From: Posidonia oceanica
Taxonomy: Eukaryota; Streptophyta; Magnoliopsida; Alismatales; Posidoniaceae
Reading direction: 5' to 3'
DNA: 64,000 nucleotides
NCBI GenBank assembly: GCA_037176725.1
Contig: JAZBRS010000049.1
Span: 37,130,001 to 37,194,000 of the forward strand
Within the stretch, counting starts at the first letter, position 1. Each line of letters starts with the position of its first letter. A model generated the notes under the pieces. That model did no database searches. It was not told the DNA's origin and was given only the letters and a program-made list of their open reading frames with translations. Below are positions 35,153 to 64,000 of this stretch, piece after piece. Made by a program: the position numbers and the translations under genes.

Positions 35153-36447
35153 GCAGCCTGCGTATTGCATGAGCATAGAGGAGGCAGATCCAACAGAAGA
35201 GCAGCCTTGGTACCATGATATCAAAACCTTCCTAGAGTCTGGCAGCCACCCGCTTGGCACCTCAGTAGTAGATAAAAGAACTTTGACGCTTCTGGCGTCG
35301 AAGTATGTGTTAGGAGCAGGGCAGCTATATAGAAGATCATATAGTCAGATGCTCCTGCGCTGTTTGAGCAAACCAGAGGCTGACACTCTAATGCTCCAGG
35401 TTCATGCTGGGACTTGTGGCCTGCATATGAATGGCGCGTTGCTGGCCAAGAAGATCATGCTCCAAGGCTACTTCTGGTCAACCATGGAGGCAGACTGCTG
35501 CCAGTTTGTGTATAGATGCCACAACTGCCAGATCCATGGTAATCTCATACACGCTCCCCTGCAGCAACTGCACAGCATGTCCTCGCCATGACTCTTCTCC
35601 ACTTAAGGGATTGATGTCATCGATGCTATACACCCTGCTGCTCCGAATGGTCATCGCTTCATCCTGGTAGCAATAGACTACTTCACTAAATAGGTGGAAG
35701 CAACCTCCTACAAAGCAGTCATAGCCGTGGCGATAGAGAAGTTTACCAGAAACAACATTGTCGCCCGGTATAGGGTCCCGCATGCAATCATCTCTGACAA
35801 CGGCTCGAACTTCATTGCAAAGAGGATCGAGGAGTACCTGCAAAACCTCAAGATCAAGCATCACAGATTCTCACCCTATCGGCCGCAGATGAATGGAGCA
35901 GTGGAGTTTGCCAACAAAAACATTGTGAAAATAATGAAAAAGATGGCAGAAACCCACAAAGATTGGCATGACAAGCTTCCGTACGCACTCTGGGCGTACA
36001 AGACATCAGTGCGGACCTCGACAGGAGCCACCCCGTACTCGCTGGCATACGGCATGGAGGCAGTGCTACCCGTCGAAGTAGAGATCCCTTGGCTGTGGGT
36101 CCTACGGGAAGCTGAGCTGGAAGAAGCAGAGTGGGTTGAGGACCGCTGTGTCCAACTCAACCTGATTGACAAGTGCAGATTGTAAGCAATGCACAACGCT
36201 CGCTGCTACCAGAAGCGAATGGCCAAAGCATACTGAAGAAAGTGCGGCCCAGAAGCTTCCAACCAGGGGATCTCGTACTGCGAGCTATCCACTGCCAGAT
36301 GGTCGAGGCAAATTCCGACCCAACTGGCGTGGTCCCTTTGTGGTCAAGCAGGCATTTTCTAGCGGCACAGCAATTCTTGAGGACATGGACCAGGTTGGGC
36401 AGTCTGAACCGGTCAATGCATGCTACCTCAAGAAGTACTATCAGTAG
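35153..36447 (+). pseudogene. int: E4 integrase fragment
   Basis: Plus-strand relative of the E5 integrase (first residues QPAYCMSIEEADP in both). HHCC: HAGTCGLH and RCHNCQ. Catalytic residues: D in GIDVID, D in SDNGSNF, E in MNGAVEF. The C-terminus RSFQPGDLVLRAIH, then RPNWRGPFVVKQ, ends CYLKKYYQ at 36447. Stops at 35589, 35604 and 35691; the first and third replace tryptophans of E5 (SPW and TKW). TAA at 36183 and at least one frameshift near 36295 affect the C-terminus. The 5' end is cut by the E3 LTR. Confidence 0.88.
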
Positions 36448-37494
36448 TTCGGCCCTCGCCTTGCAAATCTCTTGATTCCTGCCTTGCCCCCTTTGCATCT
36501 CCACCTTCTGCACGTCCTCATGCATCCCTTCTTGTTCTACTCCTTGCATTCGCACCCCCGCATTCGTACATCTCCATGCACTTCTCTCTTTTCAAGCATA
36601 CCCCATTCCAAAAAGCAAAAAATCATGCATTGCATTCGGCCCGATCATGAAATCGGAAGTGCTTGCCTATTCTGGAGGGAGTCTACCCTGTCTCACCTGA
36701 CACTACTTAGATGTCTTAGCTAGTGAGGGAGCCACCACTCAGTGAGAACAGGCGAAATACCAAACCCCCTAGGACTTGCACCTCCCGAGGGAGATAAAAT
36801 GCTAGGGTGTGAGCAAGAGTGTGAGCAAATAGAATATATGCCTAAGCATAGGCATAAAAGAAAAGAGCAAATAGAAGGCGAAGGCAGAAGTAGGCCTTAG
36901 AGATAGAGGCATGCAGCGTAACCTCGTCCCTCCAACTTACCTTGGAGAGGAGTCGATGTTCGCACCTGGCCAATCTACAAATCCCGCAGGGTCTAGCCAC
37001 CCCTACCTAGCAAGCAGCTCCCCAGCTTCCAACCAGGTGCCCGTTACCTCCAAGTTAGGGATAAGGGAAACCTACGTGCCTATAAGGGAGCAAAGCAAAA
37101 AAATGAATGAAAAGAGTAGGTGTAGGTCCTGGAGGGTTTGGCCTAGAGCCTGTCGTCACTACCCACCACCCAAGCACTGCAATAACCCTTTCCAGAGCAC
37201 CACCAGCAAGTTAGGAGTTTGAGTAGAGTCCAGTGAGTCAGGGACCCCTCTCTTCCTCTGCAGCAGGCGCACCGACCAGCCATTCCCCTGTGCAAGCAAA
37301 ACTGCCTTTGTTTGAATATGCTTAACGCCTGCGTTTTGAATGCTAACAGTTGAACATGCTAAACTGCTTTGCTAGCTTCGAAATCTGCTTCTTTATCAAC
37401 TAGTGGTTACATGCTTGTATCTGATCTGATGAACTGCAACCTTGGTTATAGGTACCTGAAAGTTCTGCACCAATCGCCTACATCCTCTACTGCA
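36448..37494 (+). other. E4 spacer between integrase and DUF7745 ORF
   Basis: No gene is supported. Parts match the corresponding spacer of E5 on the other strand, for example the stretch around TGCCTATTCTGGAGGGAGTC at 36664. Confidence 0.55.
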
Positions 37495-38563
37495 ATGGGT
37501 TTCCCCACCTTGGTTACCCCAATGCATTGTTCGAATGCCCTACGAGAGTGGATCGGCAAGCTCACCGAGGGTGATCGCGAGAAGTTGCGCACATGGGGCA
37601 TTCCATCCAAGCTTCTAAAAGCAGCTGATGTCGAAGTAAGCTGGCATCTCCTCTGCGCTGCAGCAAGGTTTTGGAAACCAGCATATCATGTCTTCCGCTT
37701 CGGGAGAACAGAGCTAATGCCCACACTGGAAGAAACGCGCCTGATCTGCGGCTTCTCCAATATCATGGGACCGACTGTGTTCATGAGGTGTGACGGCTAT
37801 GCAGCAACTCTGAGCAAGCTAACTGGGCTCACCACGGTAGAATGCCAGCAAAGATTAATCTGCACCAGTGGACCCGCACCCATGCTTCGCCTAACACACT
37901 TCGACAAAGCTGCCAACAAGCGTGCTGAACTAGGAGACGAGCTTTGGCTCCGGGGATTTGTCACCCACTTCCTAGACGAGCTGATCTTCAGCCTCGGCCG
38001 GATGACAGTCGCAATGGAGGTCACCGAGATTGCACTCGCTGTGACAACCTAGCAGCTTGACTTAGCACCGGTTGTTCTAGCAGAGACCTACCATGCACTG
38101 GACCGCATCTCGCACTACTGCCGCCACTTCTACGGCTGCAGGGTACTCGTGCAGATCTGGCTAGCTGCACACCTAGAGATGAATATTCTGTGCCCCCAGA
38201 GGCATGCCATCAAAACATACTGCAGCAGCGACCATGCAAGGACTATCAAGAGCGTCCCAGAAGAATACAAGAAGCTGTCTGAGCTGACGGACGATGTAGT
38301 AACTTGGCATATCATCCCGTCCACAGTTGAGCCTTCCACTGTCTTCTTTAGTGCCCGCGACATGCGACTCGTGGTGCTGCCAGGCTTCACAGGAGGTATG
38401 GAATACCACCCCATCCGGGTCATGCGGCAATTCGGCTTCCGGCAAGGCGCCTTTGTTGATAGTACAACGCCTAGGCTCCTGCAGCCCTATCTGCTCAATT
38501 CAAAAACCGCAATAGCAGAGTTAGCAGATCTGATGCATCATGGAGTGCAGTTAATGGACATAG
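37495..38563 (+). pseudogene. E4 DUF7745-type protein, 3' truncated
   Basis: Starts MGFPTLVTPMHC, as in E5. The core ADVEVSWHLLCAAARFWKPA, then VFRFGRTELMPTLEETRLIC matches the DUF7745/plant-mobile-like proteins found near plant retrotransposons. A TAG at 38050 replaces the glutamine seen in E5 (VVTQHIDL). After the stop it is open to 38563, where the E5 LTR cuts it. It is in the same direction as integrase. Confidence 0.72.
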
Positions 38564-41500
38564 TGTAGCGATCCCGATCGGAATCAGGCTCGCTGATTCA
38601 GCGGCGATTGAGATCCGAGGAAGAGGCTCAACTCGAAAACACTTGGAATCGAGGAGAAAAAAGAAAGATAAGACAAATCAGAGTCGCCACCATGTCTATT
38701 AACGGGAGACAAGGAAAACCGGGGAAATGCGTGAATTAACACGCAAAACCGAGCAAGAAATGCAAAGCAAAGCAATGCAAAGGAAAACAAATGCAAACAA
38801 ATGCAAATGAGATGACTCTAGCCTAGGATAAAGGCAGTATGGTCATTGCAGGCCAAAAGACAGGGTAAGGACTCCTGTTACGCGGGGAAGGTGTTAGGCA
38901 CCCCCGACACGCCCGAGAATCGGTCTTTCTAGGCTTACGCTCGCATACGCAGAAAAATGCAGGATTGAATGCCTATGTGCCTATAAATGCCTAAATGAAT
39001 ACTCAAGGTGTGCTCTAAGTGGGAAGGAACAAAGCAAGGAAGTAAACGTGCTTTCTAAGTGCTCAGCTGCGCTGTCCGTGTTCCGAATTAGGCGAAACCT
39101 AGCTCGTGAGAACTCCAGACAGTAAGCATCACAGCCCTATATGCAAATGCAGGCGAAAAAGCGAAACAGCGAGAAAACCATTCAATGCAATCGACATGCA
39201 AGAGAAAAACGGCGTAAAACACGCAAAACAAGGCGAGAAATGAGCAAGGCACGCAGAACGGAGCAAAAGAGCGAAACCGGCACGCAAAAACAAGCGAAAA
39301 AGCAAGGCAGCACGCAAAATGAGACAAGGAAGCAAAGAAGCACGCAAAACGGTGCAAGGAAGCAAAGAGGCAGGCAAAACGGTGCAAAAGCGAGAGCGGG
39401 CACGCGAAACGGTGCCAAAACAGCGAAGCAAAAACCTCGGAAAAACCATGCGAATGCAAGAATGCAGAAAAGATCAGAAGAGGCCAAAGGGGAGGTAAAA
39501 CAACGTGTGTGTAAGAACAGACGTTGTTCAGGACCACTCAAAGTAGGTGTGAAGACCTACAGAGGGGAAAATGAGCAAACGGAGGGATCACCACCTCTTA
39601 GCGACTGTTTCCCACTAAACCGTTCCACGGTGTGTCTCGCATGCTGCCCAAAGCTCGCGATGCGATCGGATCATGGAAAAGGGGGAAGAAAGTCACATTA
39701 AGTGGTAAATCCAAGGAAAACTCAACACAAAACACATAGGGGTACGCGAAACGGGGATTTGGAGATAGAAGCAGAAAGGGGAGGCCCTATTCTACATGCT
39801 CAAAGAGACAGAAAACGAAAACAAGGAAAACTATGCAAATGGCATGCAAATGCAATGCAGGGGTTTAGGAGGACATACCTGGAAATCCGGGAGCCTGATC
39901 TGAAATCTGTCTGGTCCATGCTGAAGAGCGCCTCGTCGCGGTCTCCTGGGCAGCTTACTTGAGAAGATCCAACGGCCGGATTGGAAGATATCGCAGCTTC
40001 AAGGCAGAAGGGCCAGAACAGGGGAGAAGAACAGATCTAGGTGTTCAGGAGGTCCTAGGGATGTGCAAAAAGGTCCTCCCAAGTGAAAGGGAGCTAAAAG
40101 TGCTTAGTGTGTGCAAGAGGATGCTAGAATGCAAGACTAGATGAGTGCAGGATGCATGCAAAAGCAAGAAAAAGCAATGATAAGAAACTGGGAAAAGCCA
40201 GGAGTTCAGAAAGCATTTTGAAAAAGAAGGGGGCTAAAAATGCAAATTTTCCAGAAAACAGGGGTTCATAGGAAAGGGTTTTGAAAACAGGAAAGGGCTG
40301 GGCTTCATTTTGCAAAAACTAGGCTCAGGAAAGTTGTTTTAAAAAGAGGGTATGCTTTAGGAGAAGTTTTGAAAGCAAAAAGAAGTCAGAAAGCAATTTT
40401 AAGAAAACTAGGGTCTAAAATGCAAATTTTCCGGAAAACAGGGTTCTGGGGAGTCTGAGAATACTAGTGGAGGGTCTGCATGCAATTTGGTGAACATAGG
40501 AGCTAAGATGCAACCTAGGGGCAAAATGGTCTTTTCACATGATTTTTGAAAGATGCAAGGACCTATGTGTGATTTTGAAATCATGCAGGGGCTAAAAATG
40601 CAATTTAGTATGGAAAACATGCTCTGAAAATCAGGGAACAGGACCACAGTGCAATTTTTAAAAAGAACAGGGTCAAAAATGCAATACAATAAGCTAAAAA
40701 TGCATGCAAGAGTTACTGTCCATTTAAAATGGACCTAAATGCAAATATGCAAAAGCAGAAGGTAAAAAATGCAATGCAGTATGCAAAATAAGAAATAACA
40801 GCTAAGTTCCTACAGTGCATGGACTTACATGCAAAAACAGAAACATGCAGGGACCTAGAATGCAATGCAGTATGGTAAAATGCCAGCAAATAAATGAACT
40901 GATTCAAGACAGGACTTACATGCAAAAATCAAAAACAGAGGGGCTAAACTGCAAAATATTATAACAGCACAGCACAGTAACAGGACTAAAAGGCAAATAG
41001 TGAAAAGTAAGAACAAAAGTTGCAATTTAGCATGGTATTTAATTAAAAACTAAGCATGTTAAATGAACAGAGGACTGAAGTGCAAAAATTGAAAAACTTA
41101 AGGCAGATATGCAATATTTGCAAAGAAACCATATAACCAGAAAAATAATTGAACAGTGGTTGGCCGGCGGTGGTTGGCACTGTAGCAGGATTCCACCGGA
41201 GCTCACCACCACCGGCACAGGGAGCTTGGGGAGGCGTGACATGGCGGAGGCCACTGACGGCGACTGTGCGGAGCTTCGGAGACCGTCGGAGCGGCGTTCT
41301 GTTGGCCGGAGCATCAGGAGGAACAGCAGCCGGCGCCAGAGAAGAAGCATCATCCGGCGAGTCGAGGACGGCGCTGGAAGATTGGGAACTGGCTTCTGAT
41401 GGGCGGAAAAGCAGCAGGGGGAAGAGAGAGAGCGGGGGAGGTAAGAAAGTACCTGTGTTCGCGTCTGGAGTGCGCTCCCGACCTCAGCAGGATCGGAGGT

Positions 41501-44353
41501 GGCCGGCGGTCGTCGTCTGGTAGCAGCGGAGACTTCCAGCGACTCGCGGAGGTTGGGATCCTCTCAGGGGGTGCTCCTGGTGCTTCTTGAGCGATCGGAC
41601 GCGAGCTTCGAAGCTTGGAGAGGAATCTGGTGCTTTTGGGTGCAGAGGATACTGCCGGAGGTGGGGGGAGGTTGTTGCTGCTCGTCTGGTGGAGTGAAGC
41701 CCTCCGGGAGGTTGCTGGAAGTCTGGCGAGTGAGGTTGGATGCTCGAAGAGGGTTTCTGGAAGGTGTGGAAGGAGATAGCTGACTGGGACGATTTTGGGT
41801 CTGTGGTGAAGCTAAGTGTTTGTTGTGTTGTTTGGGATCTGTGGTGAGAGTTAGGGCCGGAGGTCTGGGGCTCTGGAAAGGTGGGATGCAGGTGAATGTC
41901 TGGGTGGATTTTGGTGGGATCTGGTGGACGGGAGCGAAGGGAATTCTGGAGGGACCTGTGTTGGGTTTGCAGTTGGAGTGTCGGGTGATCAGGGGTGGTT
42001 TCAGTGGGTGATTAGGTGGTGAAAAGGCAATGGGAAATCGGGGGATGAAGGCTGGCTGTTGGGTGAAGTTGGAGGAGGAATTGGGAGAAGGATGAAGGCT
42101 TGGACGGGGCTTGGTTTGCTAGGAAAGAAAGAGGAAGTTTTGCTGAATTCAGAGGAAGAAATTGGAGGAGGTTCTGATGTGGAGACTGGGCTCAGACGGG
42201 GGCTTCTCTCCGGGATGTCAAGGACTCCCTTCCGCTCTCTCTTCTCTCCGGAATTGGAAGGTGAAGAGGAGAAGGAGGAGGGTCGCACAGGATGGGGAAG
42301 GGGCCGGAATTCTTCTTGGGTGTTGCTCTCTCACTCTCTGGTTCGCTCTTACACAGGCTCTGGCTCTCTGGCTTACTCACACTGGCACTGGCAACTGAAG
42401 GACTACTGAACTCGGGACGAACGGGAAGCTTATATGGGGAGAGACCGGCTGCTGGCGCGCTGCTGAATTTCAAACTTCATCGGCGGCCACTGCAGCAGAC
42501 AGGAGACGGCGAGGCGACCGGCATTCAATGCCTCCCGGAAAAGGTGCTGAGAGATGAGAGAGCGGCGGGCTGCTGTCGCATGATCTGATGGAGAGGGAGA
42601 GCTTGAAATTCAAATGAGGGAGGGAGTACTGCAGCAGCTCGAGCTCGCGGGAAGAAAATCCGATGGAAACGCTGAGGAAGGAGGAAGAAGAAGGAGGAGA
42701 AGGAAGCGGGCCGGACTGCTGCGGGCCGAGAAAAAAGAAAGAAAAAAAGAGAAAAAAAAAAAAAAAAAAAGAAGAAACGGGCCGGATTGAGCCCAGTAAG
42801 GAAAGAAAGAAAGAAAGAAAGAAAGAAGGAAGAAAGAAAGAGAGGGTAGAATGGGGAAATAAAATAGGTAAAAATAAATAAAAATATTAGAAGAGTTTTG
42901 CTGTAGGTTAGGATTTTAATTAAGATTTTTAATGGTCATTTTGAGTTGATTAATGTGTTTTGGGCTTGATTAGGATTTTAGGATTTTGGTTTTGTTTTTA
43001 ATTGGTTTTCACTTGATTAAATGTTTGTTAAACCTTTTTTAAATTGTTTTAAAAATTGTATTTCCCTTGTTGGACACTTAGGATATTGATTAGGATTTTT
43101 TAGGATTTAATTTCGTATTAATCAGGGTTGGTTTTAGATTTTTAAGTTGTAGTCTTCTTAGGGTTTTTCCTTCTTAAGTCTTTTAAGTTATGTTTTGATT
43201 TTTATTTGTTGATTTTTCTTGAAGTTTTTGGTTGGGTTTTTCTGGTTTGATAGGATGTTTTTAAGTCTTCCAGATGTGTTTTCATTTTCTTTTTTAATTA
43301 AGTTTTTAACTTGTTTTTTCTTATGTTTATTAGGTTAAGTCTTTTGCCTTCTTTAATTACTTGTTTTAGTGTTTGATTTTTAATTCTTCTTTTTAGGGTT
43401 TGTTTTTTAATTCTTTTAGTGGGGTTTTTACTTTTGCTGGGTTTAGATCTCATTTTAGTTTTTTCCTAGATTTTTCAGTGTTTTCTTTTGATTTGTTTTG
43501 CATTTTTTAGTTTGCATGTTTGGTTTTCCTTTTAGCTTGCTTTAGTTAAGTTTAAGTTGTTAATTGCTTGTTTAACATTTTTAATTGTTTTTCTTAGGGT
43601 TCTGATTTGCTTCTTTTGTGTTTTGAGGTTTTACAGATTTTTATGGGTTTTTGTGGATTTTTGCAAAATGGAGAAAAGGAAAAGAGAAGGAGGAAAGAAA
43701 TGGAAAAAAGAGGGAGATAAGAGGAAAAGGGATAGGTTGGAGGAAAACGATTTTTAAAAATTCAGAAAAAGTGTTAAAAATAAAGTAAAAATAGGGATAA
43801 GATAGAGGAAGGATAGAAGCACAGAGGGGGCCCACAGCCAGACCAGAAAAAGGATGAGAAGGGGATGAAAGGAGAGATGATAATCAGGAGAGAGAGAGAG
43901 GAGAGAGAAAATAATAATCCCGGAGAGAGGAAAGGATAATTTGGGTGAAAGAGGGTCTTAATGGTCTCGGAATGGGATGAAAATTGGTGAGTGGGTAGTC
44001 TAGGGTTTGAAGTCTTGGGTCTGAAGTTTTGGTTTGATTCTAAGGAGGTTTTGGAGGGGTTTCAAGGTGTAGAAAAAGGATAGTTTTACCTAAGTTTTCT
44101 AGGGTTTTTGGGAATGGGTTAGGTTTGGAAATTTCTAAGTTTTTGGGTAGGTTTGTTGGGTGGATAGTGGTGGATTTTCCTATGGATTTTGGTTAGGTTT
44201 TGAGGTTGGGAAGGGGGGTAAAGGTCTGGGCCAAGACAGGCTGATTTTGAAGGGTAGAGAGGAGGATTAGGGCTAGGGTTTGGTTGGGGGTTTGATCCAG
44301 CAATCACCAAGAGGGCTCCAAGGGTCCGGGCCTGCCAAGATGGGGTGTCAACA
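38564..44353 (-). repeat. E5 3' LTR (5790 bp)
   Basis: On the plus strand it begins TGTAGCGATCCC and ends GGGGTGTCAACA. It matches 60691-64000 with an offset of 22127, becoming 22129 after a 2-bp indel near 38882. It contains the Ogre LTR box (38866-38931), a short GGCACGCAAAAC repeat (39240-39420), an ATGCAA-rich array (40140-41130), a GC-rich block (41150-42600) and a T-rich tract (42890-43660). No gene inside is supported. Confidence 0.95.
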
Positions 44354-44402
44354 GATGCCCCTCCCTGAGCGAGGGCAAGCGGAGCGCGGCCGCTGCTCAG
44401 GG
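44354..44402 (-). promoter_or_regulatory. E5 polypurine tract with adjacent hairpin
   Basis: On the minus strand GGGAGGGGCATC directly precedes the LTR start TGTTGACACC, so it is the polypurine tract that primes plus-strand DNA. Just upstream, CCCTGAGC (44363-44370) and GCTCAGGG (44395-44402) form an 8-bp inverted repeat around a GC-rich loop that overlaps the tract. Confidence 0.75.
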
Positions 44403-44898
44403 TTGACAAGACGCCCCATCTGACCGGCGGAAGCAGCGGGTTGCTATGGGCGTGAGCTACTTATTCGGCGGATGCACCGAAGATCGTAGCCCGTTGCCGC
44501 AATGCAAAATATCAGTGCAGATGGATGCTGTGCTGTGTGTATGCATGCTGATGCAAATGCAATGCAAGAGTTAGTATAACAGTTAGTGCAGCTATAAGAA
44601 AATGCTGATGCTGTGCAAGTGATACTGAAGTAATATGCAGTGCTAGCTAAGAAAGTGCAGAGATGATGCAGGAAAAATGATAAAAAGGTGCGATGTGGCA
44701 CGAATATCTGGCAGGGAGGCCAGACTTGCGCGACAAAGCAAGGGAAAGCAGGGTGCAGCTGGTCCCCGCCCGGGGAGCAAGCTAGCAGAGAGAAGAGAAA
44801 GGGGCGCGAGGGGAGAGAGGGCAACTCTCCTATCACAGAAAGGGGGTGCGTGACTTCGTCTTCCTGGGACAAGGCCACACCGAAAAGGAGAAAAAAAT
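44403..44898. other. E5 3' region between polypurine tract and hairpin array
   Basis: No ORF is supported. Part is rich in GATGCTGTGCAG-like words (44500-44670) and part is GC-rich. Nothing else recognised. Confidence 0.5.
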
Positions 44899-45955
44899 GA
44901 TAAGGTGACGGGCTTATCGTCCGGATAGTTTACGGTCCTATCAACCGGGAGTGACAGTTTACGGTCCTGTCAACCGGAGGCAGTTGTGAGTGATAGTTAC
45001 TGGATATCAGCCGTATAACATGGTTGTGGGTGATAGTTTAGGAGTATCAGCCTAACGACAGTTTACGGTCCTGTCAACCGGTGGATAGTTTACAGACCTA
45101 TCAACTGGAGGATAGTTTATAGACCTATCAACTGGAAACCACAAACCATGAGGGATAGTTACTGGATATCAGCCGTATAACGCAATGCCGGATAGTTTAC
45201 AGTCTATCATCTGGAGCGACAGTTTACGGTCCTGTCAACCGGCGGATAGTTTACAGACCTATCAACTGGAGGATAGTTTACAGTCCTATCAACTGGAAAC
45301 GGCATTGCAAGGGACAGTTACTGGATGTCAGCCGTATAACATGATTGCGCGTGGTAGTTTACAGTCCTACCAACTGGCGGATAGTTTACAGACCTATCAA
45401 CTGGAGCGACAGTTTACGGTCCTGTCAACCGGTGGATAGTCTACAGACCTATCAACTGGAAACGCGCAATGATGAGGGATAGTTACTGGATATCAGCCGT
45501 ATAATGCAATTGCGGGTGATAGTTTAGGAGTATCAGCCTAACGACAGTTTACGGTCCTGTCAACCGGTGGATAGTTTACAGACCTATCAACTGGAGGATA
45601 GTTTACAGTCCTATCAACTGGAAACCGCAATTGCAAGGGACAGTTACTGGATGTCAGCCGTATAACGTAATTGCACGCGATAGTTTACAGTCTATCATCT
45701 GGAGCGACAGTTTACGGTCCTGTCAACCGGTGGATAGTTTACAGACCTATCAACTGGAAAAGTGCAATTACGAGGGACAGTTACTGGATGTCAGCCGTAT
45801 AACACAACTGCGGGCCGACCATGGATCGACCAGAAGATAGTTTAGGAATATCAGCCTGAGATAGTTTCGGATATCAGCCTAGCACGAGTGATTGATAGAT
45901 GATAGTTTAGGAATATCAGCCTGAGATAGTTTCGGATATCAGCCTAGCACGAGTG
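44899..45955. repeat. Array of covarying hairpins in multi-branch units of about 162 bp
   Basis: Five units, each enclosed by its own closing stem: 45019-45029 with 45139-45150; 45182-45190 with 45300-45308 (9 bp); 45344-45351 with 45463-45470 (8 bp); 45505-45515 with 45625-45635 (11 bp); 45666-45676 with 45762-45772 (11 bp). Inside are four (last unit three) small hairpins of the type GATAG-N8/9-CTATC, GACAG-N9-CTGTC or GGTAG-N9-CTACC. Units are joined by a hairpin GATA-N9-TATC or GACA-N9-TGTC followed by AGCCGTATAA. The array starts with GATAAG-N8-CTTATC at 44899-44918 and decays after 45840. It lies in the 3' region of E5. Confidence 0.9.
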
Positions 45956-46009
45956 ATTGATTGATTGATAAGAGGGGGCAAGATCATGATGAGAATGATA
46001 AGATATCGA

Positions 46010-46560
46010 ACTTATCGGCCGGCAAAGAGGGGATGAGAGAATGATGAGAAGTTGAGCTAAAGAGGGGGATGAGATCATGATGAGAAACTAAGCTAAAGAG
46101 GGAGATGAGATCATGATGAGAAACTAAGCTAAAGAGGGAGATGAGATCATGATGAGAAACTAAGCTAAAGAGGGGGATGAGATCATGATGAGAAATTAAG
46201 CTAAAGAGGGGGATGAGATCATGATGAGAAACTAAGCTAAAGAGGGAGATGAGATCATGATGAGAAATTAAGCTAAAGAGGGGGATGAGGTCTTGATGAG
46301 AAGTTAAAGCTAAAGAGGGGGATGAGATCATGATGAGAAGCTAAGCTAAAGAGGGGGATGAGATCATGATGAGAAGCTAAGCTAAAGAGGGGGATGAGAT
46401 CATGATGAGAAGTTAAAGCTAAAGAGGGGGATGAGATCATGATGAGAAGCTAAGCTAAAGAGGGGGATGAGATCATGATGAGAAGCTAAGCTAAAGAGGG
46501 GGATGAGATCATGATGAGAAACTAAGCTAAAGAGGGAGATGAGATCATGATGAGAAAGGT
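46010..46560. repeat. 36-bp tandem array, about 14 copies
   Basis: Consensus GATGAGAAACTAAGCTAAAG followed by AGGGGGATGAGATCAT; some units are 37 bp. Each unit contains the palindrome ATCATGAT. The borders are GATAAGATATCGGACTTATC-like hairpins (45998, 46568, 46621). The leucine- and serine-rich open frames on the minus strand are artefacts of a repeat whose unit is a multiple of three. Confidence 0.88.
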
Positions 46561-46814
46561 TGATTGATAAGATATCGGACTTATCAGCCGGCAAAGAGGG
46601 GATGAGGGAATGATGAGAATGATAAGATATCGGACTTATCGGCCGGCAAAGAAGGGATAAGGGAATGATGAGAAGAAGTCATCCCATGACGCCAGGAACG
46701 TCATAGGGGAAAGGGGGAAAGAATGATACCAAGGGGCGATCAAAAGATGCCCCTGGTGTCGGAATGACACCAGGGGTTGGCCAGCGCGTCCTTGGCATCG
46801 AAAGCAGAGAGTGA

Positions 46815-47640
46815 TGACAAGTGTGTCGTGCTTGTCAGACGAGTAGTTTGGGGTACCAGCCCACAAGGGACTCAGCTGAGGGCGATCAGCTGGGGACTCA
46901 GCTGGGGATGACCAGTCGAGAAGAGTGTCAGGTTGACGGACCTTTCGCCGAGCAATTTGGGGTGCCAGCCTGCAGAGACAATGATCCAGCTAGGGGCGAC
47001 CAACTGGGGACTCGACTGGGATGACCAGCCGAGAAGAGTGTCAGGTTGACGGACCTTTCGCCGAGCAGTTTGGGGTGCCAGCCCGCAGAGATAAGGATCC
47101 AGCTGGGGGCGACCAACTGGGGACTCGACTGAGATGACCAGCCGAGAGGAGTGTCAGGTTGACGGACCTTTCGCCGAGCAGTTTGGGGTGCCAGCCCGCA
47201 GAGATAAGGATCCAGCTGGGGGCGACCAACTGGGGACTCGACTGAGATGACCAGCCGAGAGGAGTGTCAGGTTGACGGACCTTTCGCCGGGCAGTTTGGG
47301 GTGCCAGCCCGCAGAGAACTCAGTTGGGGAGGATCAGCTGGGGATGATACCACAGGGTGGCCAAACGACGCCCCTGGTATCAGGATGGTACCAGGGGATG
47401 GCCGATGCGCCCCTGGCATCAGGATGCAAGGATAGATAAGCGAGTGGATGGATGATAGGTTGACGAACCCATCGCCGAGCAGTTTGGGGTGCCAGCCCGC
47501 AAGGGACTCAGCTGAGGATGAACAGCTGAGGAGGATGACAGGTTGACGGACCTTTCGCCGGGCAGTTTGGGGTGCCAGCCCGCAAGGGACTGCGGTCCAG
47601 TCGGGGATGACCAGCTGGGGACGCCGGACGGCGGAGCTTA
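46815..47640. repeat. 113-bp tandem array
   Basis: Four clear copies from about 46850 to 47330 (the 113-bp period is seen at 46928, 47041, 47154 and 47267) and partial copies at 47455-47640. The unit includes GTCAGGTTGACGGACCTTTC and GCAGTTTGGGGTGCCAGCCC. The second segment holds a small inverted repeat that varies with both arms (GTA/TAC, GCA/TGC, GGCA/TGCC). The array begins with GACAAG-N9-CTTGTC. Confidence 0.85.
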
Positions 47641-47895
47641 GTGTCGCGGGCCTGCAGATGCTCTAGGCTCCGGATTGGGTGCTGAGGACTTCGCCGCGTT
47701 GGGATGTCTGCAAGTCTGATTAGAGGGCCCAAGATAATGATGATGATGATATGCAATGCAGCAAGGAGTCTTGATGTGCAAGCAGAAAGCAGAAATAGTT
47801 TCCATTGATATGATCTTGATAAGTACAATGCCTGCGGCAGGCCAGAAATGTACAGCACAATTTGAAAGAAGACCACATGATGATCGCACAAGGGC
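47641..47895. other. E5 spacer between 113-bp array and DUF7745 ORF
   Basis: No gene or repeat recognised apart from a short GATGATGATGAT run near 47738. Confidence 0.5.
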
Positions 47896-49098
47896 CTAGT
47901 CAACCCGGGCCTTCTTCGGCTGCCTGGAGTCGGGGAATAAGGGGCCGCCTGGCGGAACTTCAGTGATTGGCCAGAGCTGTCGGACTTCTGCTTCATAATC
48001 AGGAGTGCATCCTGTACCTCTCACAGCTGCAACATCTGTAGATCGGACCCCATGCTGCATCAGACTAGCAAGCTTCTTGGTTGGGGCAGTGGTGCTGAGA
48101 GGATAAGTCTATAGAAGCTCGGGCGCTGTGCTGTCAATGAAGGCGCCCTGCTGGAAGCCGAACTGGCGCATGACCCTGATTGGATGGTACTCTACGCCTG
48201 CTGTGAAGCCCGGAAGAATGATCAGCCGCGTGTCACACGCGCTGAAGAAAATTGTGAATGGCTCTGCTGCAGAGGGAACGATGCGCCAGATCACAGCGTC
48301 GTCAGTTAGTGCTGACAGCCTCTCGTATTCGTCTTTGACGCTCTTGTCTGCTCTGGTATGGGCGCTGCTGCAGTAGGCTTCGAAAGCATGCACTTGAGGG
48401 CGCAGAAGGTCCATCTCTAAGTGCGCGGTCAGCCAGACTTGTATAAGTGCTCCGCAACCATGGAAGTGGCGGCAGCGATGAGAAATGCGGTCCAGCCCGC
48501 GATAAGTCTCTGCTAAGACAACTGGTGCCAGATCTATGTGCTGGGTCACCACAGCTAATGCAATCTCTGCGACCTCGATGGCCACTGTCAGTCGGCCATG
48601 AGTAAAGATTAGTTCGCCCAAAAAGCGGATGACGAATCCCCGGAGCCACAGCTCATCTCCGAGGTCAGCACGCTTGTTCAAGATATCATCAAAGTGTGCA
48701 AGGCGAAGCATAGGCTCTGGTCCACTGGTGCAGATTAGCTTTTGTTGGCAGTCTTGAGTGGAGAGCCCAGTCAGTTGGTTCAGGACCCGGAGATATCCGT
48801 CGCGCCTCATGAAAACGGGCGGTCCCAAGATCTTTGAAAAGCCGCAGATCCGACGCACCTCTTCCAGTGTAGGTGTCAGCTCAGTCTTGTTGAAGCGGAA
48901 GACATGATGCGCCGGCTTCCAGAATCTCGCGGCGGCACACAGAAGGTGGCGGCTGACCTCCACATCAGCAGCCTTTAGCAGCTTGGTTGGTATACCCCAC
49001 AGGCGCAACTTTTCACAGTCCTGTTGAGTGAGCCTGCCGATCCATTCTCGCAGGGTTTCCGAGCAATGTGCGGGAGTCAGCAGAGTAGGAAAACCCAT
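47896..49098 (-). pseudogene. E5 DUF7745-type protein with one internal TAG
   Basis: Starts MGFPTLLTPAHC at 49098, chosen because the E4 copy starts the same way; the open frame upstream is not conserved. The core ADVEVSRHLLCAAARFWKPA then VFRFNKTELTPTLEEVRRIC resembles DUF7745 proteins, a plant family related to the plant mobile domain. TAG at 48109-48111 is a glutamine CAG in E4 (LLQPYLL). Beyond it the frame stays open for 70 more codons, ending PDSRQPKKARVD at 47896, about 400 residues in all. It lies in sense after integrase, unlike the antisense PMD genes of E1. Function unknown. Confidence 0.72.
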
Positions 49099-50578
49099 TA
49101 TACTGGTTGCAGAAGACAGGCTGATTACTGCAAGGCTTGAGGTACCTGCTATCAATAAACAGTCAGATCTCGCAGGTATGTAATCACTGACAACAAGCAG
49201 AAACTGAGACTGAAAATGTAGTTCCAATATGCATCTAGGCAAAGTGATAACAGAACATAACAATTAAGCACTGATAAGCAGGGGGATTCTGCAGCAGTCT
49301 TGCGGACACGGGGGCGAGGGTTGGCAGGGAATCTAGACCAACGCAGCTTGAGTGTCGTCGATGTGCCTCTGCTGGGGAGAAGTACTGCCTCAGGACCTGA
49401 GCGTGTTGCAGAGCGGAGAGATTGGCGGAAGGGGAAAGGAAAGAAGGAAGATGCATGAATGCAAGATGCTAGTGATATGCTTATGAGGATGAATATTATT
49501 GGATGAATAAGTATGCTTGAATGGATGAGTATGCTTGGGTGGATGGGTATGCTAGGGTGCCCTCAGCATACGGAGTGCTTTGGTGCCTGCTGCAGAGGAA
49601 GGGAGTGGTCCTTGACTCACTGGGCCCAACTCAGACTCTCGGCTTATCGGTGGCGCTCCGGAACAGGTTGTTGGCATTATACAGGTGGTGATGTGGTGAG
49701 GACAGGCTACTGGCTGCACTCTCAGGACCTACACCTATTCTTTCAGCTCTCTTTTTTTTGAAAGGTTTCTCCCTCATAGGTATGCAGTCTTTCTCTGTCC
49801 CTAGCTAGGAGAAGGTATGTGTTTGCTTTTGGGAGGATGTGGTAGACCCCTTTTCCAGGCTTGACATGCTGGGGATCTCTAGTAAAGTATGGGGGATAAC
49901 GGTGCCTGTGTTTTTTGGGCTACCTTTGCCTTTTTCTTCTTTTTTTTTTTTTTTTTTTGCTTGCTTTTCTCCTTTTTTTGTTTTTGTTTTTGTTCGATCT
50001 CTTTTTTCTTCTTCTTTTTTTTTGCTTGATCTTTTTCCTCTTTTTTTTTCAGGCTTTTGCTATCCCCATTCTGGTGGCAAAAGAAGGGTGCTTGAAATGT
50101 AATGGATTCAGGTTTTGGGTCTGCTGTGTGATGGGTAGAAGGAGCAGGGTTAGACTGCACACCCCTATCTCTAGGGCCGGCTTCTGTCTTCGTCTTCTGT
50201 TCCTTGGAGGTGCCCAAACCTAGATGTCTATTCTTACTTTTTTCAAGCTCACAACCTAACATTTTTTCTCCCTCAGAGGTGTATGTCCTTGTGAGATTGG
50301 GCAGTTCGCCTGTCCTTATTGGTGGTGGCTCCCTCACTCGCCAAGACATCTAAGTAGTGCCAGGTGAGGCAGGGTGACTCTTTCCAGAGCAGGCAAGCAC
50401 TTTCGGTTGTCATCACCGGGCAAAAGATGTGATGTTTGAGAGGATGACGATGATGATGAAAAGAAAGAATGCAAGAGTTGAAAGGATGACGATGATGATT
50501 TGAAAGGAGATGAAGTAAGAAGGCGAGAATGCAAGTATGCAAGCGGGAGAAGGGCATCTGCAACGGGGACGCTTTCGG
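49099..50578 (-). other. E5 spacer between DUF7745 ORF and integrase
   Basis: No gene is supported. A C/T-rich tract lies at 49930-50050, purine-rich on the coding strand. Parts resemble the E4 spacer. A GATGATGATG-type repeat lies near 50440-50500. Confidence 0.55.
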
Positions 50579-51139: not shown

Positions 51140-52345
51140 CTAAGGCCGATAGGGCGAGGATCGATGGTGCTTGATCTTGAGACTATGCAGGTATTCTTCG
51201 ATCCTTTTGGCAATAAAGTTTGAGCCGTTATCAGAGATGACAGAGTGCGGGACCCCATATCGGGCAACAATATAGTTTCTGATAAATTTTTCTGTTGCCG
51301 CAGCGGTGACTGTCTTGTAAGAAGCTGCTTCCACCCACTTGGTAAAGTAATCGATCGCTACCAGAATGTAACGATGACCATTCGAAGCAGCAGGGTGGAT
51401 GGCGCCGATGACATCGATCCCCCAGGTGGAGAAAGGCCATGGCGAAGACATGTTGTGCAGCTGATGTGGAGGGGCCTTGATGAAGTTACCATGGATTTGA
51501 CAGTTGTGGCATCTGCGCACGAACCGACAGCAGTCGGCTTCCATGGTCTGCCAGAAATAACCTTGCAGCATGATCTTCTTGGCTAGGAGGACGCCGTTCA
51601 TGTGCGGGCCACAGGTCCCCGCATACACTTGAAGCATCAGCGTGTCAGCCTTCGATTTGTTCAGGCAGCGTAGTAGCATCTGATTGTATGACCTTCTGTA
51701 CAGCTGCCCGGCCCCTAACACATATTTTGACGCCAGACGCGCCAAAGTTCTCTTATCTATTGCTGTGGTATCAGGAGGAAAGCTATCAGATTCCAGGAAA
51801 GATTTTATGTCTTGATACCAGGGCTGCTCCTCTGCGGGATCCGCTTCCTCTATGCTCATGCAGTATGCAGGCTGTTCAATGCGAGTGACTGATACATCCA
51901 CAGTGCTGTCTTCTGAAATGGTGAGCCAGGATGCCAGAGTTGCTAGTGCGTCTGCATACGCGTTCTTTGCTCTGTTCAGGTACGTGAAGCGGATGCTCTT
52001 GAATTTTTCCATCAGCCTCAGCAGGTGTTCGTGATACGGCACAAGCTTGGGATCTTTTGTCTTCCATTCGCCGTTCACTTGAGAAATTACCAGCATGGCA
52101 TCGCCGTGCACATGCAGCTTCTGCGCCTCATGCTCGAGGGCGACTTTCAACCCCAGGATGCACGCTTCGTATTCTGCTTCGTTGTTTGTGCAGGTGAAAG
52201 TTAGCTTCCTTGCAAAAGGAGTCATCTGTCCTTGGGGCGTGGTCAGCACTGCGCCTACGCCTCGGCCCTTCTTGTTGACTGCACCATCAAAGTAGAGCTG
52301 CCATTCCTCTGCTTCTTCAGGATCTTTCTGCTCAGAGTCCTCCAT
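51140..52345 (-). pseudogene. int: E5 second RNase H and integrase N-terminal and core part
   Basis: 401 codons. The first 140 residues form the aRH-type RNase H (WQLYFDGAVN, NNEAEYEACILGL, VHGDAMLV, YADALATLASW). The integrase follows: AGTCGPH and RCHNCQIHGN of the zinc module, D in WGIDVIGAIH and D in SDNGSNF. The first zinc-binding histidine is a tyrosine (VYAGTCGPH; VHAGTCGLH in E4), a C-to-T change that probably weakens the fold. It is joined in frame to RT through TAG 52373 and to the C-terminus through TAG 51140. Confidence 0.88.
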
Positions 52346-52372: not shown

Positions 52373-55300
52373 CTACGTCTGGAGGGGCTGGTATTCAGGC
52401 AGAGGGAGGTCAGCAAGATGGTCTGCCATTGCTTGACCCTTCATGGACTTCTGTGTGACAAAGGTGATGTCGTACTGGGACAATAACACCTGCCACTTAG
52501 CACATCTGCCCACCATGACCGGCTTCTGAAAGAGGAACTTGATAGGATCATGCCGGCATAAGAGCTGCACTGGGTATGCCATCAGGTAGTGCCTCAGCTT
52601 CTGTGCAGCCCAGACAAGTGACAAGCAGGTCTTCTCTAGTGTTGTGTACCTGGCTTCGCATTCATTAAACTTCTTGCTCAGGTAGTAGATGGCGCGCTCC
52701 TTCCTACCAGATTCGTCATGTTGGCCCAAGACGGCGCCCATGGAATGCTGCGTGGTAGAAAGGTAGAGAAGTAAAGGTCTCCCCAGCGTAGGCGGGACCA
52801 GGACAGGAGGCTTGATCAGCAGCTGCTTGATCTTGGCAAATGCAGCCTGACACTCCTCGCTCCAGTGAATCTGCGCATTCTTCTTCAAGAGCTTGAATAT
52901 GAGTTCGCAGATGGGCGTAAGCTGTGCAATGAAGTGACTGATATATTGTAAACGCCCAAGCAGACTTCTGACTTCTTTTTCAATCCTAGGGGGTGGCATG
53001 TCCACGATGGCTTGTGCTTTCAACGGGTCCACCTCAATCCCCCTTTGGCTAACAATGTAGCCGAGCAATTTGCCAGAAGATACCCCGAATACGCACTTCT
53101 TGGGATTCAGGCGCAGCTTGTACTTCCGTAGACGGTCAAAGAGCTTTCTGAGACAGGCAAGATGATCCTCGGGCTCTTTGGTTTTGGCAATCATATCGTC
53201 TACGTAGACCTCCACTTCTTGGTGCATGAGGTCGTGGAATAGCGCAGTCATGGCCCTCTGATAGGTTGCACCAGCATTCTTCAGGCCGAACGGCATGACT
53301 TGGTAGCAGAAGACTCCCCAAGGGGTGATGAATGAAGTCTTTTCCATGTCCTCTTCTGCCATTTTGATCTGATTGTATCCAGAAAAGCCGTCCATGAAGG
53401 AGAGCATTTTGTGGCCTGCTGTATTGTCGACTAGGACGTCAATGTGGGGCAGTGGAAAGTCGTCCTTGGGACTCACCTTGTTCAGGTCCCTATAGTCGAT
53501 GCAGATTCGGATTCGGCCATCCTTCTTGGGCACAGGTACAATGTTTGCCAGCCATTTAGGATAAAGAACGACCTTCAGAAAGTTGCCTCCAAGCTGCTTC
53601 ATTATCTCTTCTTTGATCATGAGCAGCCACTGCGGTCGCCATCTTCTTAGTTTCTGCTTTACTGGCTTGGCATCCGGATTTAAGGGCAGATTGTGCACCA
53701 CTATCTCTATGTCGAGGCCGACCATATCTTCATAACTCCAGGCGAAGACATCCACATATTCCCTCAGGAATGCAATGAATTCTGCTCGAGCCTGGGCGGA
53801 CAGCTGGGCACTGATGCAAACTTCTCTGACTTCCTCAGCCGTGCCGATGTTAACAACCTCCGTTTCTTCTTCAACATGGAGGTTGGGGCCTTCTGGGTCG
53901 TCGTCATAGGGCCGGAACTCGGGCAAAGGTTCGTCAGTCTCATCCATGCCCGTATCATCCTCTTCTCCATAAGCAACAAGTTCTGAGAGGATCTCTTTCT
54001 CAAAAGAAGGACTTGTGATGTCGAAAGAGTGCATGTGTTCTGCTGCTTGGCCCTGGTGACACTTCAGGATGGTCATGCTCACTCGAGTATTCTTGTAGCC
54101 TCGGTGCGCGACCTCCGTCCCAACAACTCCTTCTACTGCTTGCTCTGACCTGACTGATTCTGCTGAGTGCTCTGCTGATTCTGCTGAGGGCTCAACTGAC
54201 TCTGCTGCTGATACTGCTGACTGCTCTACTGACTGTGCTGCTGAGGCTGCTGAGGTATTCTGCTCTGCTGCTGCTGCATCTACTGCTGATGCTCCCCCCT
54301 CTGGGTCTTCTAGTGTGCTAGTGGAGGATATGCCGGACTGGCGGCTGATCTGGTCATTGCCGCTCGATGCCTTGCTTAGGTGAGGCATGGGTTGCACAAA
54401 CCACCTAGACCCGCCTTCTGGTTGAAGAGTGATGAGCTCATCTGGTCTAGGGGAGTCCGGCGCTGCTGAGTCTTCTAGGACCATGATAGAAGCATGGTCC
54501 TCTTGCAGAGGAGGATCCGTGACTACGGCTTTTCCTTTCCTTTCTGCAGCTTGATGGTCTGCCAGGTCTTCTGTTATCGACTTGATCTGTTCTTGATAGA
54601 GTAGCTCTAAGTCGGACATCCAAGAATCGACCTGGGCTTCTATTGCCACTCCTTCTTCCTCGTCTGAGGGGGAGTCGACGTAGTAGGCGCCGGGGGCCTG
54701 CGGCACTGGCCCGGCTGCAAGATGGATCGCCGCCCTTGGAGTCTGCATGATCTGGTTCACGGGCGCGTCTGCTGATGGCAGTTCAGATGTAGAAGGCCCA
54801 AATAGACAGGCCAGCGGTGCTGCTGATGGATAAGCTTCCAGGGTCACTGTGGGAGAGTAAGCAGGGGTACTCTTTGGAGGGCTCAAGGGCCCGGAGAATG
54901 TAGTGCTCAGTTGGCCTTTTGTATCGGGCCGTAACTGAGAGAGCGCAGCCTCTGACGCCATAGGGTCTTGCCATGAGAGCTGCTGCAGGTCGTCAGGAGA
55001 ATGCGGAGCGGACTGCGCCAGCTGCATTCCTGAAGATGATGCTGAGGGAGCGGGCTGGGCCACGCTGCCGACTGAGTTGATGGACTGCCCCTCCAGAGAT
55101 GGGGGCAGTGGCACTGATGTTGCTGTGACCGCTGGTAGCATGCTTGGTTCTGCCAAGAGGAGTGTCTGTGTCTCCTGCACTGCTGCTGTCTGATCTTGAG
55201 AAACTGATGTGGCTGCTGAAGGATAGGAACTTGAGTCTGCCACAGGGCCTGCTGAGCTGCCTACTGTTTCTGCCAGAGGATGAGCTAAATAAACTGACTG

Positions 55301-56941
55301 TGGGGCCTCTGCTCTGACCACTGTTTCTGCTGAGTTGATTGGGACTGCCTCTGTTGCATCAGACTGCTCCTCATCCGAGTAGTAGTCCTCAATACACACC
55401 CAATCCTCTGCCGGCGCTGTGGCTTGGTAATCGGTTGATCCCAGAATTCCTGCACTGGTAAAGTTAGTGAGGTCTCTGGGAATGGCTGGTGCACGATCTC
55501 TGAGCTGGGAGCAGTGATCTTCGTTGAGCTTTGGCTCGTAGCCGAGACCTTCAGACTTTCTTCGCTCCACTGCTACGATCGGCTCCGCGATCCCTTGGCC
55601 GTGACGCCCGAGCGGCGTACCCTTTGTGTAACCCCACCTGTGACATACGTTCTCGACCATTCGAAAGGGGTTATTGTGAACGGTCAAGGAGTTGACACGT
55701 TCAAGATCAGGAACGAAGTTAACTGGCTCGCACCGGTTAACGCGATAGAGGGCTTCAGAAGTCTCGGGGTCAAACGGGATAGATTGCGAAGACACGGGAG
55801 AGACTGCTTCAATCCGCTCCTTCTCAAAGTTCTCCGCCATGACGACAATGACATCATCGCCACGACGGTACTTTATCATTCGATGGAGGGTCGAAGGAAG
55901 GACCTGATGCTTGTGGAGCCAAGGGCGCCCAAGCAGAAGATTGAAGTTAGGCTTCAAGTCGACGACATAGAATTCTACGTCGAAGACGACCGGACCGATA
56001 GCCAGAGGGATAATCAGAATCCCTAGAGTGTCATGGTGAGTGTTGTCAAAAGCAGTCATTCCCTTCACGGCTGGTGTGATATCCTCGGCTTTGAATCCGA
56101 GCTTGGTTGCTGTACGCAAGGGGCAGACATTAAGGCCTGACCCGTTATCAACCAGCGTTAGGGGAATGCGAAAGCTTTTGAACTGCACCGTGACGAATAG
56201 GGGCTGGTTGTGATTAATCCCTGCCGGAGGCAGCTCATCACTCGTGAAAGAGATGACCTGCGGCTCCGCGATTAACCCAACCATGCCCTCCAAGGCAGAA
56301 GGCTCAATGGACTGGGACACACGAGCAGCCTGGAACACGCGAAGGAAAGCCTCGCGGTGCTCGGCAGAAGTGTGGATCAAATCCCAGATGGAGATGTCGG
56401 CTTTAACCTTCTTAAGCTGGGAAGTTAGGTCTGCTTTAGGTTGGCTTCTCCTAGCAGCTGGAGGGGTGATTCTAGCAGGTTCTAAAGGGGTAGTGGCAGG
56501 AAGCTGGGTTACTACAGGCTGGCTAGGGGCTTGGCTAGCTACGGGCTGATCTGGGGCTGGATCTGCTAAGGGTTGACCTGAGGGTGGGGGTAAAACAGGT
56601 TCAGGGCGAGTTGGCCTAGTTGCCGGTATTTGGGGCCTGTAAACCCTCCCCGACCGCGTTACTTCCGCGCACATTTCTGTGGCGTAGCTGTAAGGGACGC
56701 GATGGGTGTCCAGGGTCAAATCAATGACGACTGGAGCATGTGCTGCAAGCACAGGAGGGGTTACAGGGGGACCTATAGGATGTTGAGGTCTATCTAGTGG
56801 GTATGGTTGTTGGGGTGGGAAGGCTGGGGCAGGTCGAGGTCTGCCTAGAAGGTGTAGCTGAGGCTGCCCTAAAAGGTGAATGGGAGAACTAGGCTGGGCT
56901 CTAGCTAAGAGGTGTACTGGGGATTGAGCCTGAGGGAGCAC
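52373..56941 (-). pseudogene. pol: E5 protease, G-patch, RT and connection RNase H
   Basis: 1522 codons without a stop. Residues about 255-345: retropepsin with LVDNGSG (D-N-G where D-T-G is common; D-N/G-G variants are usual in Tat proteases) and LLLGRPWL. About 428-455: G-patch-like WGYTKGTPLGRHGQG. About 450-1040: long low-complexity linker with SAESVE-type repeats. About 1100-1330: RT with VRICIDYRDLN-like (IRICIDYRDLN), DGFSGYNQI, MPFGLKNAGATYQRAM and the catalytic YVDDM. Then the connection RNase H to GQAMADHLADLP. It starts in the -1 frame relative to gag with a 37-base overlap. The frame goes on into the second RNase H after TAG 52373. Confidence 0.88.
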
Positions 56942-63600: not shown

Positions 63601-64000
63601 GCGCTCCCGACCTCAGCAGGATCGGAGGTGGCCGGCGGTCGTCGTCTGGTAGCAGCGGAGACTTCCAGCGACTCGCGGAGGTTGGGATCCTCTCAGGGGG
63701 TGCTCCTGGTGCTTCCTGAGCGATCGGACGCGAGCTTCGAAGCTTGGAGAGGAATCTGGTGCTTTTGGGTGCAGAGGATACTGCCGGAGGTGGGGGGAGG
63801 TTGTTGCTGCTCGTCTGGTGGAGTGAAGCCCTCCGGGAGGTTGCTGGAAGTCTGGCGAGTGAGGTTGGATGCTCGGAGAGGGTTTCTGGAAGGTGTGGAA
63901 GGAGATAGCTGACTGGGACGATTTTGGGTCTGTGGTGAAGCTAAGTGTTTGTTGTGTTGTTTGGGATCTGTGGTGAGAGTTAGGGCCGGAGGTCTGGGGC
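60691..64000 (-). repeat. E5 5' LTR, cut by the window edge
   Basis: Matches 38564-41871 closely; differences are almost all transitions. If it has the length of the left LTR it ends near 66480. It contains the LTR box at 60993-61060, the ATGCAA array at 62270-63260 and the start of the GC-rich block at 63290. Confidence 0.95.

Follow-up and report, generated by a model that had tools for sequence, protein, structure and literature searches.

Tandem repeats in the 3' regions of Ogre elements are already known, as was stated in the original prediction for this locus, made from the letters of the DNA, and the origin of those of Tat elements has been proposed to be recombination or strand transfer (PMC7004042). 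The Tat/Ogre repeats of the 3' untranslated region, a source of plant satellites, share with the repeats of E5, the Posidonia oceanica element described here, the lineage, the place downstream of gag-pol, and the tandem organisation (PMC7004042, PMC6317226). The E5 repeats differ from them by internal covarying pairing, and the terms 'pseudoknot' and 'secondary structure' have 0 occurrences in the main texts of PMC7004042 and PMC6317226. Among the open-licence papers listed in searches for pseudoknots of plant LTR retrotransposons or Ogre, covariation in LTR elements, and pseudoknot arrays, none showed an array like that of E5; the tandem repeats of Tat/Ogre 3' regions are known, and a putative pseudoknot array in this place was not found in that literature.

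In TMV, three consecutive pseudoknots stand upstream of the tRNA-like 3' end, bind eEF1A/GTP, and stimulate translation, for which a poly(A) tail can substitute (PMC4683447, PMC5382211). The case of STMV, in which three predicted pseudoknots are mostly unsupported by SHAPE, calls for caution (PMC3551766). By comparison of pairing, consecutive 3' UTR pseudoknots are predicted in the E5 array as well, but it contains 23 of them, within closing-stem domains, as compared to the three units of TMV (PMC4683447). The host is a retrotransposon and not a virus, and no tRNA-like structure was found by Rfam directly downstream of the array (41800-48200, E up to 1).

Another likeness, also by comparison only, is that to elements of the CTE/MTE type, since E5 has a predicted structured RNA between its last ORF (48109) and its 3' LTR (44353). 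The CTE is retroviral, IAP is a host of RTE, and transport elements of this kind stand before the 3' LTR. Structured RNAs of LTR elements, RTE and MTE, the latter (of musD) with a pseudoknot, export full-length element RNA, and Ogre is named among the plant elements that, as exceptions, have an intron (PMC12786077); introns are reported for Ogre elements of pea and Medicago (PMC6317226). The described transport elements differ from the E5 array in belonging to animal elements and in that export was shown there experimentally, and the E5 array has no Rfam match.

The coremin xrRNAs of benyviruses and cucumoviruses consist of a short hairpin and a spacer with TAAACTAC, followed by another hairpin, and this order is found in the E5 array too. 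According to the coremin rule, the loop of the first hairpin is YGAD or YGNNAD, heptaloops being less thoroughly studied (PMC10520033), whereas the E5 loops, as read directly, are of 7 nt (UGAUAGG) or 8-9 nt and depart from this rule.

Host element E5 and the layout of its 3' noncoding region

The window, i.e., the whole analysed stretch of 64,000 nucleotides, comes from a genome of 2.96 Gb in 80 contigs. The host of the array is a 27.9-kb LTR retrotransposon, E5, on the minus strand (Table 1). Its LTRs, the ends of which were placed by eye at TG/CA, are 99.03% alike across 5795 columns (BLAST of the window against the window plus its right flank, L048), and the 5-bp target duplication CATAG at 38559-38563 is repeated outside the right LTR. 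Directly after the 5' LTR stands the PBS TGGCGACTCTGCTGGGG, the partner of which is presumably tRNA-Arg. The protease-like and RT matches share one ORF of 1522 aa and are about 800 aa apart; a G-patch (PF01585) is located between them at 55535-55633 on the minus strand (residues 437-469 of the ORF at 52373-56941). The extra RNase H (aRH), which is a mark of Tat, and the plant mobile domain, encoded by an extra ORF in 57% of Ogre elements (PMC6317226), are both present in E5, the former as RVT_3 besides the RT-linked RNase H, and so are the LTRs, 5-bp target duplication, PBS, and PPT of the Ogre lineage (Ty3/gypsy, OTA/Tat). The domain set of E5 agrees with that given for the Ogre lineage in PMC6317226, the intron excepted.

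Because the genes of E5 are on the minus strand, its sense RNA is the minus strand of the window, and the original prediction had therefore read the array in antisense. The array lies downstream of the last recognised ORF and about 0.5 kb (~0.53) upstream of the polypurine-tract-like GGGAGGGG. Over 1,057 nt, its three sense frames are interrupted by 31, 25, and 22 stops, which rules out a protein-coding repeat, and an origin from the LTR is ruled out by the end of the 3' LTR at 44353.

Table 1. Features of E5 and of its 3' noncoding region, in positions of the window.
Feature	Position	Strand	Details and basis
3' LTR of E5, 5.79 kb	38564-44353	-	sense start TGTTGACACC at 44353; BLAST, window vs. 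itself and right flank L048
Polypurine-tract-like GGGAGGGG	44358-44365	-	adjoins 3' LTR; sequence
Pseudoknot array	44899-45922	-	23 strict H-type units and six joining elements; strict finder, direct reading
Domain 1 (sense order)	45666-45772	-	closing arms 45762-45772 with 45666-45676; three pseudoknots
Domain 2	45505-45635	-	closing arms 45625-45635 with 45505-45515; four pseudoknots
Domain 3	45340-45474	-	closing arms 45463-45474 with 45340-45351, one C.C mismatch; four pseudoknots
Domain 4	45182-45308	-	closing arms 45300-45308 with 45182-45190; four pseudoknots
Domain 5	45019-45150	-	closing arms 45139-45150 with 45019-45029, one bulge
Joining element J, GACA/TGTC form	45776-45802	-	
Other J copies	45639-45665, 45478-45504, 45313-45339, 45154-45180, 44992-45018	-	
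Further single pseudoknots	46565-46590, 46621-46645, 46815-46842	-	strict finder
113-bp repeats with type-2 units	46840-47317	-	GGG ct GGYA CCC aaac TRCY
Plant mobile domain ORF (PF10536)	48109-49263	-	E 7.4e-21; last recognised gene ahead of 3' noncoding region
Second RNase H (RVT_3), then integrase	51140-52345	-	domain match
RT, RNase H, G-patch, protease-like match	52373-56941	-	domain match; protease-like match below Pfam cut-off
gag ORF (PF03732)	56905-58182	-	protein domain match
5' LTR of E5	60691-64000, beyond window end to about 66467	-	BLAST

The six copies of J, each of 27 nt and with a weak S1, stand between pseudoknots. The five closing stems, of 9-11 pairs each, were regained by nested folding of the five single domains, for which energy folding limited to nested pairs was used, and domain 5 contains three strict pseudoknots and a fourth whose S1 is weakened (CAG/CTA). 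All five closing pairs named in the original prediction are present at their places, as are GATAG/CTATC, GACAG/CTGTC, and GGTAG/CTACC. The joining hairpin has the GATA/TATC form at 44992, 45154, and 45478 and the GACA/TGTC form at 45313 and 45776, as proposed, the remaining copy being located at 45639 instead of 45637. The proposed unit length of 159-164 bp holds for a part of the array, the spacing of joining elements being 137, 161, 165, 159, and 162 bp.

Upstream of the array in the sense direction, the region 45956-47400 as a whole does not exceed shuffled sequences in strict pseudoknots (5 vs. a mean of 2.65 and a maximum of 6). About fifteen 36-bp tandem repeats at 46024-46557, in the noncoding region, are free of strict pseudoknot matches, and about 25 tandem copies of a 44-bp repeat at 797-1884 contain few pseudoknot matches. 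Pieces of a second, related element in plus orientation occupy 35154-38497, reaching the E5 insertion at 38564; two stretches of them resemble the pol and mobile-domain parts of E5 (77% and 73% in DNA).

Predicted pseudoknot fold of the units and its covariation

In the sense strand, each unit can be read as an H-type pseudoknot in the order short S1 (CGG/CCG, CAG/CTG), loop of 1-2 nt, S2 (GACAG/CTGTC), and A-rich TAAA loop; in CGGT-T-GACAG-G-ACCG-TAAA-CTGTC, for instance, S1 is CGGT/ACCG and S2 is GACAG/CTGTC. The five-way junction of hairpins proposed in the original prediction gives way to this reading, with 3-4 sense H-type pseudoknots per closing stem. The grouping of three or four small hairpins by each closing pair stands, although each of these hairpins is one stem of a crossing pseudoknot. 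In classical H-type pseudoknots, a short loop crosses the longer stem and an A-rich loop crosses the shorter one. The sense geometry of the units is of this kind, with L1 of 1-2 nt over S2 of 4-6 bp and L3, mostly TAAA, over S1 of 3-4 bp, and the antisense geometry is its mirror image (1-2 nt across 5 bp). The assignment to the sense strand is based on this loop geometry, on the orientation of the element, and on the presence of G.U in 35/55 type-2 rows.

The strict finder gave 24 sense and 9 antisense matches in 44899-45955, as compared to a mean of 3.05 and a maximum of 6 in 60 dinucleotide shuffles; 23 of the 24 are units, the match at 44981 being an accidental overlap with a joining element. 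With a stricter geometry (L1 1-2, L3 3-5 nt), 22 sense and 5 antisense matches remained, and the rest of the window gave a mean of 0.6 and a maximum of 4 across 114 strand-segments. Among 4,000 random 28-mers of equal composition, pseudoknots of at least 9 pairs arose in 0.075% and those of at least 7 pairs in 2.1%. Since shuffling breaks repeats, these counts overstate the independence of the matches, and the weight is carried by covariation tests. Nested folding of the whole stretch is mildly unusual and alike on both strands (z of -2.38 for sense and -2.34 for antisense, 20 shuffles each). Rfam contains no family matching 41800-48200 at E up to 1, and none at gathering score in four loci, which rules out a known RNA family; viral contigs gave 0 exact matches to the joining motif. 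The spacing of units varies by locus (27, 28, or 29 bp). The sequence TAAACTAC is present behind the first hairpin in type-1 units with GGTAG/CTACC, e.g., at 45353-45376, and also in the coremin motif of plant viruses, which may be due to chance.

Type-1 units were collected from the window and from loci L009-L081 by means of a profile built on sequence alone, for which 16 units of the window served as the seed. Of 985 matches, 935 were kept, 50 being dropped because of insertions or more than two gaps; a further 73 had a gap in the core, and the 862 gap-free cores gave an alignment of 84 distinct rows. Twelve type-C units from a seed misregistered in its first and last rows were left out, and loci L082 and L083 are absent from the unit and closing-arm counts. 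In the 84 distinct cores, 92.4% of cells are paired, as compared to 18-40% with slid arms, and the cells that differ on both sides number 39, as compared to 14.3 in shuffles. Changes on both sides concern S1 pair 2 (G-C/A-U), S2 pair 2 (A-U/G-C), and S2 pair 3 (U-A/C-G). Pairing with the own unit is Watson-Crick in 901/935 cases (96.4%) for S1 pair 2 and in 926/935 (99.0%) for S2 pair 3, whereas with the next unit it is so in 314/612 (51%) and 291/612 (48%), respectively; S2 pair 2 is nearly invariant (931/935 vs. 572/612). As pairing stays within the unit, the pseudoknot can be told apart from nested pairing of neighbouring units. Of the 30 cores shared by at least two loci, 57% are fully paired, and of the 54 confined to a single locus, 37%.

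Type-2 units were taken from the 113-bp repeats and from other loci, those of family C (see below) among them; 55 of 63 distinct units were used, the remaining 8 having one-base length differences or another sequence. Their cells are paired in 94.5%, as compared to 28-54% when slid, and both-sided changes affect two S2 pairs (18 and 22 rows), with all four combinations present. Since S1 pairs 2-3 and the first G of S2 were set by the search pattern, these positions carry no information; S1 pair 1 is unpaired in 14/55 rows. Among the 32 variants of 307 copies of the joining element, 19 have U-A, 12 have C-G, and one is broken.

Closing arms pair with their own partner over at least 8 consecutive pairs in 231/254 domains and with the arm of a neighbouring domain in 104/402 cases, in counts limited to stretches between joining elements of 51 to 259 nt; the latter number is raised by the palindrome GCAATTGC, which is common to several arms. 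The covariation of units, joining elements, and closing stems bears out the original claim that the pairs differ between units with both arms changing. An excess of paired changes over chance, on which that claim depends, was found for both-sided cells, but not for the number of both-sided pairs per alignment (type-1, 3 vs. 3.0; type-2, 3 vs. 2.1; joining element, 1 vs. 1.3), since few columns vary.

Exact counts in the whole genome, in which copies of sequences and not events are counted and linked states can be co-inherited, gave joining elements with U-A in 67,537, C-G in 45,303, C.A in 920, and U.G in 227 copies, i.e., paired in 112,840/113,987. In exact type-1 units with S2 held as GATAG/CTATC, S1 pair 2, which overlaps a mutation-prone CpG site, is A-U in 179,439, G-C in 109,493, A.C in 10,257, and G.U in 8,076 copies, i.e., A-U or G-C in 288,932/307,265. 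The one-sided intermediates, a search for which had been proposed originally, thus make up 1,147/113,987 joining elements and 18,333/307,265 type-1 units. All reversed-pattern controls of these counts gave 0.

Results of these comparisons make it very probable that the sense RNA of the E5 array folds, as predicted, into about two dozen H-type pseudoknots grouped by closing stems, the base pairs of which would form in the cell. It is also probable, with less confidence, that selection sees the sense RNA, and not the DNA or the antisense RNA.

Related families and the course of paired changes

Families A, B, and C, as well as L082 and L083, are candidate separate subfamilies. Family B, with a likeness of 74-80% in the DNA around the array, shows the same succession of domains and joining elements, though some of its closing arms differ; in L056, L062, and L066, the three loci that extend far enough, its array again comes after the mobile-domain ORF. 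In L082 and L083, the arms differ and yet stay paired, e.g., CATAATTGCA/TGCAATTATG next to CGTAATTGCA/TGCAATTACG. Family C contains type-2 and other pseudoknots. A search with the start of an LTR, at 6813-8055 of the window, from which 19 loci were fetched, revealed the type-1 array in L056, L059, L060, L062, and L066, and a long match to the family C array in L051 and L063. Long nested hairpins (GATACCAGGGGC...GCCCCTGGTATC) occur in the sense strand of 46723-47426, and similar ones stand beside type-2 pseudoknots in family C (L079).

The fourth pair of domain 3 (45471/45343) is G-C in 13/13 family B rows with the arm CATGATT, while in family A it is C.C in 30/40 copies and C-G in 10/40; the change, the mismatch, and the compensation thus coexist. 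Between families A and B, domain 4 differs by a paired insertion of one base per arm, and bulged domain-5 arms occur in at least 37/254 domains. The persistence of such flaws in closing stems (the domain-5 bulge and the C.C mismatch), together with crossing stems of 3-5 bp, would make repair by template switching ill-suited as an explanation of the pairing; selection on folded RNA, which the original prediction had offered beside it, fits better.

Counted over families, about eight double changes appear to be independent: three in type-1 units, two in type-2 units, one in the joining element, and one each in domain 3 (a pair of substitutions) and domain 4 (a paired insertion). The U-A/C-G switch of S2 in three unit types might have one old origin, which would leave about six. 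When wobble pairs were used to tell the strands apart, the two families pointed in opposite directions. Variants present in at least three family A copies include 9 of the G.U and 1 of the A.C kind (Fisher p 0.038 against rarer ones), which speaks for the sense strand, the columns of two replaced blocks having been left out of this comparison; in family B, the numbers for variants in at least two copies are 5 and 10, which speaks against it, in a poor alignment with many gaps. Mutations found in single copies of family A often break stems, as is expected of dead insertions, and the comparison of private and shared mutations in 40 copies gave no clean signal.

The array could also be a neutral by-product, in which a unit that folds by chance was duplicated by strand transfer in the course of reverse transcription and paired states spread by descent and unit exchange, with no function of the RNA. 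Replacements of whole units, observed in 14/40 and 6/40 family A copies, agree with such a course, and related sequences by themselves can exceed shuffles. The commonest swapped-in units are, however, again pseudoknots, the paired changes concern three unit types as well as closing stems, one series of them leading through a mismatch, and the design is kept by family B and two further loci; we consider a neutral origin rather unlikely. The observed position of the array, the strand of the genes, the make-up of units, the covariation within them, and the design shared with other groups support the retention of a folded sense RNA that would have been kept while its sequence changed.

Possible functions of the array and their significance

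An array between the last ORF and the 3' LTR is expected in both spliced and unspliced RNA, which makes packaging less, and export, translation, or stability more, probable as its role. Export is favoured here because of the precedents in LTR elements of animals (PMC12786077), the introns of Ogre elements (PMC6317226), and the equality of units, which suits multivalent binding. Our preferred but tentative reading is that the E5 array is a sense-RNA pseudoknot array that likely serves as a multivalent docking site for the export of full-length RNA from the nucleus. An export or adaptor protein would be bound side by side at many equivalent knots, and this binding would carry the full-length E5 RNA out of the nucleus in a CTE-like manner. 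We know of no protein that binds the array units. As the protease-like match and RT of E5 are in one ORF, the intron that would make export a need may be lacking from E5 itself. Taken alone, the export role, which is drawn by analogy, is possible and rather doubtful.

A translation enhancer resembling the upstream pseudoknot domain of tobamoviruses, which would bind eEF1A and replace the poly(A) tail or add to its action, is suggested by the same kind of unit in the 3' untranslated region of TMV. The array stands, however, ahead of a 5.8-kb LTR and is probably far from the RNA end, and an Rfam match such as a tRNA-like structure is absent from 41800-48200; this makes such a role unlikely. Improbable, too, is a stack that would block exonuclease and guard the downstream RNA from 5'-3' decay by XRN4, in loose likeness to coremin xrRNAs. 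Each type-1 unit has TAAACTATC or TAAACTACC immediately downstream of its short hairpin; in the coremin query motif, TAAACTAC stands behind the first hairpin, and in the array the second hairpin could be supplied by the following unit. Repeated coremin motifs have been reported as well (PMC10520033). The 4-bp units, however, have loops of 7 nt and the 3-bp units loops of 8-9 nt, which does not agree with YGAD or YGNNAD, and the eight-base match to TAAACTAC may be accidental. Upkeep at the level of DNA, by template switching at quasi-palindromes or through cruciform or protein-bound DNA sites that keep the arms complementary, would suit the 9-11-bp closing arms with their palindrome GCAATTGC in places and the 104/402 swapped arms that pair, but it is most improbable in view of crossing pseudoknot stems of 3-5 bp, of bulges and C.C mismatches that last in many copies, and of G.U in 35/55 type-2 rows.

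The preferred reading, i.e., an export-related array of pseudoknots in the sense RNA, may be extended beyond E5: the hypervariable repeats of Tat/Ogre elements would then not be junk but a novel class of RNA machine, namely a self-copying pseudoknot array that is under selection of the sense RNA in spite of its sequence turnover and acts as a plant constitutive transport element, which we regard as somewhat unlikely. To our knowledge, it is unexplained why giant Tat/Ogre elements keep fast-changing repeats ahead of the 3' LTR, from which plant satellites are seeded. If these repeats are selected RNA pseudoknots, this would give a reason for their being kept, a test by compensatory mutations, and a lead to a host factor, one that would be used by elements that make up a large share of plant genomes. 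One form of the unit alone has about 290,000 exact paired copies in this genome, which, if these are real pseudoknots, would place it among the most numerous known; for structural studies of RNA, the array would be a natural library in which a single pseudoknot is present in hundreds of thousands of copies and variants.
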